In this document: one piece after another, positions 42,449-48,281 of the stretch
How positions within the stretch are numbered: position 1 is the first letter of the stretch
Layout: every line of letters starts with the position of its first letter
DNA from: Parasphingorhabdus flavimaris
GTDB taxonomy: Bacteria > Pseudomonadota > Alphaproteobacteria > Sphingomonadales > Sphingomonadaceae
Direction: 5' to 3'
DNA length: 64,000 nt
NCBI RefSeq assembly: GCF_013371215.1
Contig: NZ_JABWMH010000001.1
Span: 372,001 to 436,000, forward strand
Program-made: the position numbers and the translations under genes
Notes under the pieces: generated by a model
The model's input: only the letters and a program-made list of their open reading frames with translations
What the model was told of the DNA's origin: nothing
Databases searched by the model: none

Positions 42449-44028
42449 GCATGCTTGCCGAAGGACGCCCGACCAAACAGGAAACCAATGTGACCATGCC
42501 CGACCAGAATGCCATCACCACCCACACCGGCAACCGCGCCCTGATGGTCGACGAACCGCTGATCTTTGAAATCGGTTCGCCCGATCGCAGCGGCGTCGAT
42601 CTGCCCGAGGCCCCGCAAGTCGAAAGCCGCCTCGGCGGGCTCGAGCGCAAGGCGCCGATCGCTATTCCCGGTCTGTCCGAGGGCGAGACGGTCCGTCACT
42701 ATACAAGGCTCAGCCGCCAGAATTACGCGATCGACGTCGGCCTGTTCCCGCTCGGCAGCTGCACGATGAAACATAATCCGCGGCTCAACGAGAAGATCGC
42801 GCGGCTGAAGGGCTTTGCCGACATCCATCCGCTGCAGCCGGTCGACAGCGTGCAGGGCGCGCTCGGCGTGATCAACGAACTGGCGGTCTGGCTGATCAAG
42901 CTGACCGGCATGCATGGCGTGGCGATGACGCCCAAGGCTGGCGCGCATGGCGAGTTGTGCGGTATCCTGTGTATCCGGGCTGCGCTGGAAGCGCGCGGCG
43001 ATGCTCGCGAAGTGATCCTCGTGCCGGAAAGCGCCCATGGCACCAATCCGGCGACCGCAGCCTTTGCCGGTTACAAGGTCGAGGATATTCCCGCCAATGC
43101 CGCGGGCCGTGTTGATCTCGAAGCGCTGAAGGCGCGGCTGGGGCCGGATGTCGCCGGTGTGATGATCACCAATCCCAATACCTGCGGCCTGTTCGAGCCG
43201 GACATGAAGGCGATTTCCGATGCGGTCCATGCCGCTGGCGGTTACGTCTATTGCGACGGCGCGAATTTCAATGCCATCGTCGGCAAGGTCCGTCCCGGCG
43301 ATCTCGGCATCGATGCGATGCACATCAACCTGCACAAGACCTTCTCTACCCCGCATGGCGGTGGCGGTCCGGGTTCCGGTCCGGTGGTATTGTCGGAAGC
43401 GCTGGCGCCTTATGGCCCGCTGCCCTTTACCGAACGCCATGCCGACGGTCATATCACTTTGGTCGAGGAAGAGACGGTCGAGGACCGTCACCCGCATACA
43501 TTCGGCCGGATGAGCGCCTTTCATGGCCAGATGGGCATGTTTACGCGGGCGTTGACCTATATCCTGAGTCACGGCGCTGACGGCCTGAAACAGGTGGCGG
43601 AAGATGCGGTGCTCAACGCCAATTATATCCTGCGCAGCCTCGAAGATGTGCTCGACGCACCCTTCGCGCACAGCGGTCCCTGCATGCACGAGGCTTTGTT
43701 CTCGGACAAGGGCTTCACCAACGACCTGACCACCCTCGATCTCGCCAAGGGCATGATCGACGAAGGCTATCACCCGATGACCATGTATTTTCCGCTCGTG
43801 GTGCACGGCGCGATGCTGGTCGAGCCGACCGAGACCGAGAGCAAGGCTGCGATTGACCAGTTTATCGGCGCGTTCCGTTCAGTAGCTGAACGGGCCAAAG
43901 CGGGTGACGAATTGTTGAAATCCGCTCCCCACTTTGCCCCGCGTCGCCGCCTTGATGAAACCCAGGCAGCCCGCAAACCGATATTGGTGTGGACCGAGCC
44001 AGAGGATTTCGCCGAAGCGGCTGAGTGA
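42445..44028 (+). CDS. gcvPB: Glycine dehydrogenase (decarboxylating) subunit 2
   Basis: Catalytic PLP subunit of the split glycine decarboxylase. The 527 residues include [58 protein letters not shown], and the PLP lysine in [19 protein letters not shown], followed by EATMTETESK-like C-terminal sequence and a polar tail. The first 35 residues are variable; a downstream ATG at 42451 is also possible. Last gene of the gcv operon, followed by a 10-bp hairpin. Confidence 0.96.
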
Positions 44029-44053
44029 TTGCGCACCCTGAAAGCGCAATCAC
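44025..44053. terminator. Hairpin between the convergent gcvPB and Cys-rich protein genes
   Basis: GTGATTGCGC (44025-44034) and GCGCAATCAC (44044-44053) form a perfect 10-bp stem with a nine-base loop. It begins at the gcvPB stop and lies 11 bases before the end of the minus-strand gene. CTATTTTA follows on the plus side, so it can serve as terminator for gcvPB and perhaps in both directions. Confidence 0.6.
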
Positions 44054-44063
44054 CTAAGCCCGT

Positions 44064-44366
44064 CTATTTTACGCAATATTTGCCGGAGGTTTTCAATCCA
44101 CTCGGGCAACTGCCGCTCTTGATTTCGGCATAGTCGCCTTTGTCGCCGACGCAATAATTGGCGGAAGATTTGAAACCGGTCGGGCAGGAGCCGACTTTGG
44201 TGATGGCGACCTTGCCGGAGCCGGATTTGCACGCGCTTCCCGACGATTTGAAGCCGGTCGGGCAGCTGCCGTCCTTGGCCACGGTCGTGCCGCTCGACTG
44301 GGCGAAAGCCGCGGGAACGGCCAGGCTCGAAATGATCAGTGACGACAGGGCGATTGCGTAACGCAT
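44064..44366 (-). CDS. Secreted Cys-rich protein with three tandem repeats
   Basis: A 100-residue exported protein I cannot assign to a studied family. The signal peptide MRYAIALSSLIISSLAVPAAFAQ ends in a clean AFA-Q cleavage site. The mature part consists of three repeats of about 24 residues with the pattern G-S-C-P-x-G-[FL]-K-[ST]-S/x-x-x-x-C: GSCPTGFKSSGSAC, GSCPTGFKSSANYC, GSCPSGLKTSGKYC. Six Cys would allow one disulfide per repeat. AAGGAACC precedes the ATG. Small and basic, probably periplasmic or secreted. It lies 46 bases after another secreted protein on the same strand. Confidence 0.85.
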   Translation of the reverse strand: MRYAIALSSLIISSLAVPAAFAQSSGTTVAKDGSCPTGFKSSGSACKSGSGKVAITKVGSCPTGFKSSANYCVGDKGDYAEIKSGSCPSGLKTSGKYCVK

Positions 44367-44412
44367 ATTGTGGTTCCTTATGAAAATTGGTTGGTCTGCG
44401 GCAGTTCCGAAA

Positions 44413-45234
44413 CTATCGGGCTGGCGCGCTCAGATATTCGAAGGCAACCAGGCTCTTGCCGGTCCGCTTGTTATAATATTGGCAATAGAGTTTTTCCGTT
44501 TTCGCGCTGCTGCGCTCGTTGAGACGAGCGAGAAAACTGATGCCATATTTGCCGCGTTTTTTCCGGTCGGCGGTGTAGGCCGAGGCACGGGACGAGTTGG
44601 TACCGGTGGCGCAATCGCTGACGCCCTGGTCATTGCCGCAATGCAATTTCATGTGGGAATCGCCGAGATACTGGTCGCTATGCCAGGTCCAGTAATCGAC
44701 CGTGCCGGCGCCGGGATCATCCGATTTCACGCACTGCCAGGTAAAATCATTGCCCTTGTCCATCGCCTTGTATTTTTTCTCGTCGACTTCAAAGTAGAGA
44801 ATTTCCTGCGGTTGCAGCGACGGCGCGATGCACGCACCGCTTACTTTGCCCGGCTTGCGATTGATGAAACCGGTTCGCTTCTCTTTGCTAAATCCTTGCT
44901 GGAATGTATAGCTGCCGAGATTGCCGACGGTCACATTGGTCAGGGCGATGCCAGCGCATTGGGTTTGCGATGTCAGGGCCGAAGATGGCGTGCCGAGTGC
45001 GACCAAGCCGCCGCTGCTACCCCGTTTGCCCGTGGTGCCACCTTTGCCGCGTATCGCGTTATCAATTGCATTCTTGGCCTCGTCTACCGCTTCTCTTTCT
45101 GCGTCGCGCTTGGTCTGCTTTGCTTCTTTCTTGATCGCTTTGCCAAGGCCACCGAATTGAGCGTGGGCAGCACCGCTGCTGAGCATAGAAACGGCGAACA
45201 GGGCAGCTACAGCCGGTTTTAGTAAATTCATCAT
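44413..45234 (-). CDS. Secreted protein of unknown function
   Basis: A protein of about 273 residues with a signal peptide (LLKPAVAALFAVSMLSSGAAHAQ), then a basic/acidic helical stretch (GKAIKKEAKQTKRDAEREAVDEAKNAIDNAI), a Gly/Ser linker and a domain with seven Cys, rich in Tyr and Trp (YFEVDEKKYKAMDKGNDFTWQCV, DYWTWHSDQYLGDSHMKLHCG). I do not recognise the domain. GGAG lies upstream of the paired ATGs at 45234 and 45231; either is possible, and the frame start at 45249 lacks a ribosome site. A 12-bp palindrome sits 55 bases upstream. It may form a unit with the Cys-rich gene that follows. Confidence 0.8.
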   Translation of the reverse strand: MMNLLKPAVAALFAVSMLSSGAAHAQFGGLGKAIKKEAKQTKRDAEREAVDEAKNAIDNAIRGKGGTTGKRGSSGGLVALGTPSSALTSQTQCAGIALTNVTVGNLGSYTFQQGFSKEKRTGFINRKPGKVSGACIAPSLQPQEILYFEVDEKKYKAMDKGNDFTWQCVKSDDPGAGTVDYWTWHSDQYLGDSHMKLHCGNDQGVSDCATGTNSSRASAYTADRKKRGKYGISFLARLNERSSAKTEKLYCQYYNKRTGKSLVAFEYLSAPAR

Positions 45235-45288
45235 TGATCTCCATTGCATTCACGCGGCGAATACGGGAGCAAAACCGGCATTAGAATA

Positions 45289-45300
45289 TACCATATGGTA
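45289..45300. promoter_or_regulatory. 12-bp palindrome upstream of the secreted-protein gene
   Basis: TACCATATGGTA is a perfect palindrome 55 bases before the start of the minus-strand secreted protein. Its position suits an operator, but there is only one copy and no known regulator can be named. Confidence 0.3.
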
Positions 45301-45374
45301 CATGGAGGCGGATTACGGGGATCAATGACGGCTCCAGGATCGGCGTTGTCCGAGAATGGTCGCCAGGAACCTGC

Positions 45375-47036
45375 TCAATCCAGCGGGATTTTGGCGGCTT
45401 CTTCAAAGACCTGATGCGGGACCTGCTGAATCGCGAGACTGCCGACATCCTCCAGCGGACCGATCAGACGGAACCCGTAGCGATCACAAAATTTCCTCAC
45501 CATGTCGGGCGGAGCCAGCCGGTCTTCGTCGCCGCTGATCACGGTGACAGGCACTTCCAGTTCGCGGCACCATTTCGACCAGTCACTGGCCGTCAGGATT
45601 GCCTGCTGCGCAGTCGATTCGTAGCCGTCTTCAAAGGTGCGCTTCATCGACCGTTGCATCAGGTCCGCGACATCGGCCCGGTTGAGCGTTTTCATGTCGG
45701 CATCGCTTTCGCCATAGATGCTGCGGAAATAGGCCATGCTCTTGCCGCGGCGGACCATGGTCGAGATGGCCGCGAAATAAAGCCGCACGAAAGATGGCGC
45801 GATCCGGGCCAGGCGCAGCGGCGCGCGGTAGCCCATGGCGAGATGCGAGAAATCATTGTCATCGCCGGCCGGCAAAATCGTACCCGCCATGACCAGTCCG
45901 CAAAAACGCTTCGGATGGGACCGGATTGCGGCCATCCCATATGGCGCGGCAACTCGCGCAGAAACGACGGAGCAGCTTGCGATCTCCAGCTGGTCCAGCA
46001 GATAGACCAGCCGTTCGACAAATTCGTCAACCACCGCAAGGCCGCTACTCTCCATTTTGCTTCCCGCGTAAAAGGGCAGCCAGGGGGCAATGACCCGCAA
46101 CCCCTGCTGGGCTGCGGCGTCCTGCTGGCGAGTGGTCAGATAGGCGCCATCGATTGTCGCGTGAAGATAAAGGACCGGCTTCCCGTCCGGATCGCCATAG
46201 ACTTCAAAGGGCAGATCGCCACCGTCCGGTAAAGTCAGCTTATGGCTTGAACGGGAGGAGGGCAGTTGCTGCTCCAGTGACTCCGCGGTCGCAAACGCAC
46301 TGCTGAAGCCAGCGTAGAGCGAGATAAGCTCGGTTTGCGAGCCGATGCCCAGTTTGCGGAGAAGGGCTTTGAGCTGGTTTCTCGCCGTCCCAATGGCCCG
46401 CTTGCGCTGCGCCGCAAATTCCATAACCGACAGGCCATTGACCAGATGTTCCGCAAGCTGCTCTTCGGTTGCTGTCAGCTCCAGAGACCGCGCAAAGGCA
46501 TTGCCGATCACATCATTCCATCGCAGGCGCATGACGCGAAAATCCAGTTCGGCATTGCTATCACCGGAAAGCTGGGCCGCAAAGAGCACGCCCCGGTCAT
46601 CGTCGCGGTCCGTGTACAGACGGACGATCGCGGGTCCAACGCTTCGGTCTTTGAGCAGCTTTTTCACCTGCGCATAAGCTTCGCCATCGACTCCGAACAG
46701 CCAGTCGGGGGCGGATCTTCCGCCATTCAGGTCAGCGCTTTTGAAAATCTCCTCGTCGACGTTCAGTACTGTCATCGATGTGCTGAGCGACAGGTGCGGC
46801 TGGGCCAGAAGACCGTTTGTTCCTTCAAGATCGCGGGCATAAGTAGAAAAATCATCGCCGACGCTGGGATCGATCTCGGTCAGCAACTCGGTAACATTGG
46901 CGAAATGGGGCTGGAGATCCTGTTCATTCTCGGCGCCCGGCTTCTCCAGCAGCGTCAATAATTTCATCAATCGTTCGGGCTCGGCCGCGATGGCATAGGC
47001 GTCGCGGATCAGCGGATCGAGAGAATCATTCGGCAT
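45375..47036 (-). CDS. LuxR-type HTH regulator fused to a degenerate alpha/beta-hydrolase domain
   Basis: A 553-residue fusion. Residues 1-180 form an unassigned, PAS-like N-terminal region. Residues about 185-250 (LTATEEQLAEHLVNGLSVMEFAAQRKRAIGTARNQLKALLRKLGIGSQTELISL) read as a LuxR/GerE helix-turn-helix. Residues about 265-553 are an alpha/beta-hydrolase fold (GKPVLYLHATIDG, then VTVISGDEDRLAPPD). The catalytic parts are altered. The nucleophile elbow is VVSARV (Ser359 kept, both flanking glycines lost), the acid Asp505 is present, and the position of the catalytic His holds Ser533 in DVGSLAIQQVPHQV. I infer a ligand-sensing pseudo-hydrolase controlling DNA binding. The HTH is internal, not C-terminal as in classical LuxR. 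Confidence 0.8.
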   Translation of the reverse strand: MPNDSLDPLIRDAYAIAAEPERLMKLLTLLEKPGAENEQDLQPHFANVTELLTEIDPSVGDDFSTYARDLEGTNGLLAQPHLSLSTSMTVLNVDEEIFKSADLNGGRSAPDWLFGVDGEAYAQVKKLLKDRSVGPAIVRLYTDRDDDRGVLFAAQLSGDSNAELDFRVMRLRWNDVIGNAFARSLELTATEEQLAEHLVNGLSVMEFAAQRKRAIGTARNQLKALLRKLGIGSQTELISLYAGFSSAFATAESLEQQLPSSRSSHKLTLPDGGDLPFEVYGDPDGKPVLYLHATIDGAYLTTRQQDAAAQQGLRVIAPWLPFYAGSKMESSGLAVVDEFVERLVYLLDQLEIASCSVVSARVAAPYGMAAIRSHPKRFCGLVMAGTILPAGDDNDFSHLAMGYRAPLRLARIAPSFVRLYFAAISTMVRRGKSMAYFRSIYGESDADMKTLNRADVADLMQRSMKRTFEDGYESTAQQAILTASDWSKWCRELEVPVTVISGDEDRLAPPDMVRKFCDRYGFRLIGPLEDVGSLAIQQVPHQVFEEAAKIPLD

Positions 47037-47318
47037 CGGTGCAGCCTATAGGAGGTTGCCACCGACGGGAAGTAACTCGGGGTGATTTTGACCTATTTTC
47101 GAGTTGGTTAGGAAGTGGGCCATGTTGCACTTCCGGGGGCGCCGATTTGCTCTAATTCCGCTTTTGGTTGTGTCTGCGCCTGTTTTTATCCAATGAGCTA
47201 TCGATCCGAAACCGAGGAACTGGCGTTTCGAGGTTATCCAGACAGACCGTGCGGCGGGCTATTGTCGCATCATTAGCAATGAGGCAACGGCGCCCGCCAC
47301 AGTCAGGGAGCACAGATT
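47037..47318. other. Divergent intergenic region with a spaced inverted repeat
   Basis: The 282 bases between the LuxR/hydrolase fusion and the BASS transporter hold AACTCG (47074-47079) facing CGAGTT (47100-47105), 20 bases apart, about 40 bases before the regulator start. No convincing -35/-10 pair or RNA was seen, nor a credible small gene. Confidence 0.3.
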
Positions 47319-48281
47319 TTGATCCATCGCCTCACCAATCTCTTTGCCCTGTGGACAATATTGGGGACAGCCTGGGCATGGTTTGTGCCCGATCATTTTC
47401 TCTGGGTCGTCGATGGCCGGTTCCGGCCGCTCGGCCAACCGCTGGTCAGCGTCATGCTTGGTCTGGTGATGCTCGGCATGGGACTGACATTGTCGTTCGA
47501 CGATTTCAGACGCGTTCTCAAAATCCCGCGCTGCGTCGCAACCGGCGTCATATTGCAGTTCACCGTGATGCCTTTCGCGGGCATTTTCCTCGCCACGATA
47601 TTCGGGCTAGAGACGGGCCTTGCGGTCGGCCTGATCCTGGTGGCCTGTTGCCCAGGCGGCACGGCGTCCAACGTCGTCGCCTATCTCGCCAATGCCAATC
47701 TCGCGCTGTCAGTGACGATGACCATGGCCTCGACGTTGATCGCGGTGATTGCCACTCCGCTGCTGACCGGCTGGCTCGCGGGAAAATATGTCGAGATCGA
47801 CCAGTGGAGCCTGTTCATCAACATGGTTTCGATCGTGCTTTTGCCGGTCATCGCCGGAGTGTTGTTCAACCGCTATTTGCCCAAAGTGACGGAAAAAATC
47901 GCGATCATTTCGCCGCTCGTTTCGGTGATCGTCGTCGTGTTGATCGTCGGCGGCATTATCGCCAACAGCAAGGCGCTGATCGAAGCGCATTTCGGTGTGC
48001 TGATGCTGGCGATCTTGCTGCTCCACGTCTTCGGTTTCGGGCTGGGCTATCTCATCACCAGGATGATGGGGCTCGGCGTAGCAGAGCAACGAACGATCAG
48101 CATCGAAGTCGGCATGCAGGCCAGCGGGCTTGGCTCCAGCCTGGCCTCGACGCCAACCTTTGCTGCCCAGTTCGCCAGTCCGATGCAGTCAGCACTGGCG
48201 CCGGTTCCGGCCGCCATATCCGCTGTCTATCATGTGGTTATCGGCAGTTTTCTGGCCGCAATCTGGCGACGCATCGATTGA
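47319..48281 (+). CDS. Bile acid:sodium symporter (BASS) family transporter
   Basis: Inner-membrane transporter of 320 residues with nine or ten helices. BASS signatures are LGLVMLGMGLTLSFDDFRRVL near residue 50, LVACCPGGTASNVVAYLANANLALSVTMT near residue 107 (the crossover motif with sodium-binding residues) and ISIEVGMQASGLGSSLAS near residue 262. Bacterial members carry bile acids, pyruvate, pantoate or other organic anions; the substrate is unknown. It starts with TTG at 47319, with GGGAG eight bases upstream. Divergent from the LuxR/hydrolase fusion across 282 bases, so it is a plausible target of that regulator (inference). Confidence 0.9.
   Translation: MIHRLTNLFALWTILGTAWAWFVPDHFLWVVDGRFRPLGQPLVSVMLGLVMLGMGLTLSFDDFRRVLKIPRCVATGVILQFTVMPFAGIFLATIFGLETGLAVGLILVACCPGGTASNVVAYLANANLALSVTMTMASTLIAVIATPLLTGWLAGKYVEIDQWSLFINMVSIVLLPVIAGVLFNRYLPKVTEKIAIISPLVSVIVVVLIVGGIIANSKALIEAHFGVLMLAILLLHVFGFGLGYLITRMMGLGVAEQRTISIEVGMQASGLGSSLASTPTFAAQFASPMQSALAPVPAAISAVYHVVIGSFLAAIWRRID

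Follow-up and report, generated by a model that had tools for sequence, protein, structure and literature searches.

A 553-residue protein of Parasphingorhabdus flavimaris probably acts as a one-component regulator of secreted proteins in which a dead hydrolase domain senses a ligand, a reading to which we give a probability of roughly 0.62. Its gene lies in a 64,000-nucleotide stretch of DNA, called the window below. We infer that the protein, probably dimeric, uses a LuxR-type HTH to bind the palindrome TGTACCATATGGTATA, which lies upstream of two neighbouring genes, sp278 and sp100, and that control runs from the regulator to this transcription unit. The hydrolase domain would have lost catalysis (Arg at the nucleophile, Ser for the His) and would be kept as a receptor, its pocket and cap binding a small molecule, possibly one derived from the substrate of the ancestral enzyme. 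From there the signal would pass to the HTH, with a PAS-like domain as a second input. The gene and its domains are:

45375..47036, reverse strand: regulator gene, 553 aa, with a helical N-terminus, a PAS-like domain, a LuxR-type HTH and a degenerate alpha/beta-hydrolase domain
46521..46799, reverse strand: PAS-like domain, residues ~80-172, beta-beta-alpha-beta-beta-beta in the predicted structure, the fastest-changing domain
46341..46514, reverse strand: LuxR/GerE-type HTH, residues ~175-232, with near-invariant alignment columns
45390..46250, reverse strand: alpha/beta-hydrolase domain, residues ~263-549
45567..45860, reverse strand: cap part of the hydrolase, residues ~393-490, the region best conserved among orthologs

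The open reading frame is a genuine gene. Structure prediction, which an earlier note on this DNA had proposed as a check of the HTH, bears it out with four helices within residues 175-229 (175-184, 189-199, 204-210 and 215-229). Scored alone, the regulator reaches 15.4 bits for GerE, below the Pfam cut-off of 23.5, and its Abhydrolase score also stays under the Pfam cut-off. At E up to 0.1, GerE is found in 15 of the 17 family members scanned, with a best E of 2e-5, and the LuxR-type assignment is made through this family homology and the model helices, not through the regulator's own Pfam score. PAS (PF00989) is matched by Pfam in three of the 17 members; the regulator itself gives no Pfam match to PAS, and the order of strands and helix in its model fits that domain. 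A fold search with the model, spanning residues 259-553, found the alpha/beta-hydrolase fold in the C-terminal domain. No autoinducer-binding domain occurs among the regulator's Pfam matches at E up to 1, and by Pfam and the structure model the HTH is internal and the hydrolase C-terminal, a domain order unlike that of classical LuxR, as had been pointed out before. The regulator is not a LuxR quorum-sensing receptor.

Three codons define the state of the active site:

45954..45956, reverse strand: Arg361, at the nucleophile position of the catalytic site
45522..45524, reverse strand: Asp505, at the acid position, retained
45438..45440, reverse strand: Ser533, replacing the catalytic His

These positions were assigned from two family alignments, one of 48 sequences and one of 76 regulators with four ordinary hydrolases, the 76 being the regulators fetched, a subset of those listed by the searches. 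In both, the GxSxG elbow of ordinary hydrolases pairs with S359-A360-R361-V362-A363; the glycines of the nucleophile elbow are lost, as the earlier note had observed. It had also taken Ser359 for a retained nucleophile, and this does not hold: the family alignments and a separate pairwise alignment with the hydrolase 9wlv (elbow GWSGGG) set Ser359 on the first Gly of the motif and Arg361 in the nucleophile column. The nucleophile has thus been replaced by Arg361. Retention of Asp505, which occupies the acid column, and replacement of the catalytic His by Ser533 stand as first described, and both Arg361 and Ser533 are kept in all six complete orthologs of the genus. With R361/D505/S533, the regulator lacks the nucleophile-acid-His triad. 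The original picture of a LuxR-type regulator joined to a dead hydrolase is thus right about the fusion and the degenerate triad and wrong in its residue account.

The active site varies widely within the family. Ser-Asp-His is intact in two of the 76 regulators (L137, L155) and Asp-Asp-His occurs in two others (L032, L136). The nucleophile column of the 76 holds Gly (16 rows), Arg (9), Ser (9), Ala (7), Ile (6), Val (5), Asp (4) and Gln (4), and the remaining 16 rows carry seven further residue types or a gap. Among 20 rows drawn from the phylum, of which five (L164-L167, L175) are regulators already counted, Ser-Asp-His is present in two from another class (L177, L180) and Cys-Asp-His in one (L176). 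Both L177 and L180 are relatives of full length in which the elbow (GHSAGG), the Asp and the His are all intact; near them, in longer flanks (L184, L186), lies a large protein with a signal-peptide-like start. Since triad-bearing and triad-less rows are both present, the two states coexist within one architecture, and we infer the direction of change between them. In a quick tree the triad-bearing rows form long, weakly placed branches. The clade of the window has Arg, Asp and Ser at the three positions, and most of the L010 clade has Ile, Asn and His. That the domain still catalyses some reaction with altered residues is the least probable of the readings considered and can nearly be dismissed. 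The few Ser-Asp-His and Asp-Asp-His rows among the 76, together with the two from another class, speak for it; the clade of the window has neither nucleophile nor His, with Arg in the nucleophile column, and the full triad is found in none of the 24 sp278/sp100-linked and none of the 17 type V-linked regulators.

The inactive domain has nonetheless been closely kept. Identities to six orthologs are 87, 87, 83, 85, 83 and 69% for the hydrolase domain, 94, 95, 92, 92, 91 and 73% for its cap, 90, 86, 81, 76, 78 and 71% for the HTH, and 71, 62, 70, 66, 63 and 31% for the PAS-like part. For the five closest orthologs this amounts to 83-87%, 91-95%, 76-90% and 62-71%, respectively. Against L034 the hydrolase domain shows a dN of 0.087 and a dS of 0.91. 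A dead domain so closely kept has some use, and its maintenance by selection makes a receptor-like role reasonable; to this extent the suggestion in the earlier note of a hydrolase-fold receptor survives, shorn of the transporter that it was supposed to control. A different use is conceivable, though unlikely: with the same target and operator, the dead hydrolase could be a protein-protein module, which either makes a dimer contact or senses the state of secretion by binding an unexported partner. The strongest conservation lies in the cap and not in the remainder of the hydrolase fold, as would suit such a contact, and a nucleophile column with 14 residue types besides Ser, as well as gaps, among the 76 regulators is so varied that no common ligand chemistry is implied. 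On the other hand, subfamilies retain their own active-site residues, as tuned pockets would, and enzyme-derived ligand domains are common in regulators. Ligand sensing stays the preferred role of the domain.

The conserved partner of the regulator is the following gene pair, and the BASS transporter on its other side is not the likely target:

44413..45249, reverse strand: sp278, 278 aa, with a signal-peptide-like start (by eye) and a predicted beta-sandwich; probable start at 45231 or 45234
44064..44366, reverse strand: sp100, encoded downstream of sp278, a Cys-rich repeat protein of 100 aa whose start looks like a signal peptide (by eye)

The sp278 protein has no Pfam match, neither protein has an NCBIfam match, and a fold search with the predicted beta-sandwich gave no convincing hit; four Cys of sp278 are invariant across 16 rows. 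The regulator protein is matched in 31 of 60 related genomes (own included), many of these matches being weak or single-domain, and its subfamily (at least 60% identity) occurs in seven other genomes of the genus, where one copy is truncated by the end of its contig. Both sp278 and sp100 adjoin the regulator in 6/6 complete orthologs and again in all five loci of the L010 subfamily, whose regulators are 25-29% identical to that of the window. Among the 60 genomes sp278 is present in 12, each time beside a family regulator. A draw of 298 genomes from the family contained it in 13, with an intact regulator adjacent in 12 and a remnant in one (G300), and a draw of 385 genomes from the class added a single case, G601, with no regulator in the 14 kb fetched. 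In total, 24 genomes carry sp278: 22 with an adjacent regulator, one with a remnant and one without, and the linkage is maintained across four gene layouts. In G300 (L130, 4594-6427) sp278 and the operator are kept and the sp100 start runs into the end of the regulator; from its sequence, this regulator appears to be a decayed copy in which a deletion fused the two. A weak sp278-like ORF (E 9e-6) also stands at L124 (5199-5690), directly before a regulator otherwise labelled as having another kind of neighbour.

The earlier note had the regulator sense an ester or lactone and control the divergent BASS transporter at 47319-48281, 282 bp away. This is very unlikely. Proximity and divergent orientation favour it, as does a remote BASS homologue at one of the five L010-subfamily loci, L043, which is convergent with the regulator there and 31% identical over 235 aa. 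However, when the genes of the window were compared with ortholog loci by tblastn, the transporter had no match in any of the six with at least 3 kb upstream (L034, L035, L036, L038, L039, L040; L037, with 0.8 kb of upstream flank, was left out of the count), the conserved partner sits on the other side of the regulator, and the gap between regulator and transporter holds no operator copy at up to two mismatches. The transporter itself scores 218 bits against the PanS model, below its 400-bit cut-off.

Evidence for control of sp278-sp100 comes from a palindrome in front of the pair:

45284..45302, reverse strand: predicted operator TGTACCATATGGTATATTC, palindromic core 45287-45302, centred ~62 bp upstream of the probable sp278 start

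It is the sole operator site within the window, and the opposite strand matches at two mismatches. TGTACCATATGGTATA has one match at up to one mismatch in the organism's own 3.35 Mb genome; a reversed control pattern also has one. Operator forms, elsewhere for example TATCCCATATGGGATATTC or TGTACCAGATGGGACATTC, precede sp278 in all 22 loci where it accompanies the regulator. The best sites for the pattern TNTMCCANNTGGKANATTC in these loci have no mismatch in 15, one in four and two in three, and their centres are 33-72 bp away from the start position adopted, the value for the window being 62. The 60 genomes contain nine exact operator matches, eight of them upstream of sp278. A site at up to one mismatch precedes sp278 in 11 of the 12 sp278 genomes of this set (two mismatches in G007), and the other matches number 26 (25 with one mismatch and one exact in G053) versus 19 for the reversed control. 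No operator was found in the 14 kb fetched from G601, where sp278 lacks the regulator, and no sigma-70-like promoter in 44000-47500.

A second operator-like site, CGTCCCATTTGGGATATTC or GTTCCCAAATGGGATATTC, occurs in three genomes of the window subfamily (G025:C12:78531, G028:C15:5576 and, as GTTCCCAAATGGGATATTC, G004:C43:169) and is perhaps a second target; the window's own genome has no second match at up to one mismatch. L010-type loci carry a further palindrome upstream of the operator, ~115-121 bp upstream of sp278; it resembles a CRP site and reads TGTGACCTGGATCACA in L041 and L048, with similar sequences elsewhere in the subfamily.

Related dyads reach beyond sp278. Close operator forms precede the autotransporters that replace sp278 at L126 and L127, in the same clade, and the sp100 gene of L114, and variants such as CATACGCCAGATGGCGTATG lie beside L120, L122, L045, L132 and L145. 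For a looser joint dyad, TRYNCCANNTGGNRYA, 29 matches fall no more than 2 kb from a regulator, spread over 28 of 92 loci, and the other 727 kb contains none; with four control patterns the counts near regulators were 2, 0, 0 and 0, and nothing matched further off. The near count is largely circular, because the loci that yielded the consensus are almost the ones counted (27 of the 28 were known before the pattern was built, the exception being L160), and the exact dyad is missing from the other 64 loci. The operator's single match in its own genome and the absence of matches from far sequence are less circular than this near count. The palindrome might be bound by another factor while the regulator acts elsewhere, which we regard as improbable. 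Palindrome and regulator gene could be neighbours for a different reason, and G300 retains the site beside a decayed regulator; against this, related dyads adjoin relatives with different neighbours (YadA-like proteins, classical autotransporters, a PAN/crystallin protein) and are absent from those same loci more than 2 kb from the regulator. Binding by the regulator itself remains the reading that we favour.

At E up to 1e-40 the architecture is matched in 15 of 385 class-draw genomes and 43 of 388 phylum-draw genomes (own included), some of these matches covering the hydrolase part only. A Pfam scan of 20 hand-picked neighbour proteins found classical autotransporters at L126, L127, L132 (both sides) and L139 (with a ShlB-type transporter), YadA-like trimeric autotransporters at L129 (both sides), L131 and L046, a PAN/crystallin protein (L122), a PEP-CTERM protein (L137), a DUF4915 protein (L115) and a weak TPR match (L113); six of the 20 had no Pfam family. 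Among the matches listed, a type V gene lies within 5 kb of 17 of 39 regulators in 30 genomes, where 3.0 are expected (P 1.6e-11), and PF03797 alone lies near five regulators versus 0.37 expected (P 2.8e-5), an enrichment that is large, with P values not to be taken at face value. The test searched 30 regulator genomes in full for PF03797 and PF05658. Most of these genomes lack sp278, and they were chosen after autotransporters had been noticed beside some of these regulators. The inputs of the test (numbers of matches, genome sizes in rounded form, regulators in each genome and the 17 positives) were compiled by hand, its expectation counts each YadA repeat as one gene, some YadA assignments (e.g. 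L144) are by motif count alone, and kin regulators are treated as independent. The sample omits a weaker-scoring branch, about a dozen weaker family-draw matches and most phylum-draw matches. None of nine regulators of that branch (L151-L158, L162) has a type V neighbour, and no autotransporter domain was detected in a set of 20 loci fetched later.

By neighbour, the 76 regulators divide into 24 with sp278/sp100, 17 with type V genes and 35 with others; for the 56 fetched loci flanked on each side by 4.4 kb or more the numbers are 19, 13 and 24. In the quick tree all 24 sp278/sp100-linked regulators fall within one branch of 28 (SH-aLRT 95), which also contains L124 and three type V-linked regulators, and in a second branch (SH-aLRT 100) 11 of 14 are type V-linked. 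Family regulators occur in close tandem, divergent or convergent pairs at L126, L114, L133 and L143, which suggests duplication or cross-regulation.

The family is large, often beside surface-protein genes, and undescribed in the literature searched, in which no account of this architecture was found and whose scope lay outside most subscription journals. It is possible, and here we are more tentative, that these proteins form a broad class of one-component receptors of bacteria, as yet undescribed, whose alpha/beta-hydrolase was repeatedly turned into a signal receptor like those of plant hormones. The class would control proteins that are secreted or displayed at the surface, among them adhesins, via a common CCA-NN-TGG dyad, and triad-bearing members might terminate their own signal by hydrolysing it. 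If the proposed mechanism is right, a bacterial regulator family senses through a retired hydrolase and governs surface display and secretion. Several subfamilies gain a candidate operator and target, which makes the ligand searchable with reporters. As Ser-Asp-His and dead rows stand side by side in one architecture, the enzyme-to-receptor step, for which a case has been made with the strigolactone and gibberellin receptors of plants, could be tested directly in bacteria.

Among known systems, the regulator shares its fold with the alpha/beta-hydrolase superfamily (Abhydrolase_1), from which it differs by lacking the nucleophile Ser, the His and GxSxG and by the fusion of its hydrolase behind an HTH. 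The nearest solved structure is 9wlv, a Microlunatus hydrolase, and D14-type chains rank below several bacterial hydrolases in the comparison. LuxR-type proteins bind palindromic sites of roughly 16-18 bp. With LuxR/GerE regulators, acyl-homoserine-lactone receptors included, the protein has in common the HTH and a palindrome of about that length; its HTH is internal, it has no autoinducer-binding Pfam match and its sensor has a hydrolase fold. The hydrolase fold serves signalling in the plant receptors GID1, D14 and KAI2 and in bacterial RsbQ. None of these is known to be fused to a DNA-binding part, and D14, KAI2 and RsbQ retain the triad, whereas the window protein carries an HTH and has lost it. 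MocR/PdxR regulators, in which an HTH is fused to an aminotransferase-like domain, likewise employ a former enzyme domain as a one-component sensor, with a different HTH family and enzyme fold. By analogy, the regulator may work like GID1 or MocR without belonging to either. WP_011536845.1 (Ruegeria) and WP_139615708.1 (Paracoccus), 21-26% identical to it, have the same full-length architecture by profile match, and the Ruegeria protein retains Asp-Asp-His. Proteins of this type have no function described in the literature searched, and the relatives carry the annotations 'alpha/beta fold hydrolase' or 'LuxR C-terminal-related transcriptional regulator'.
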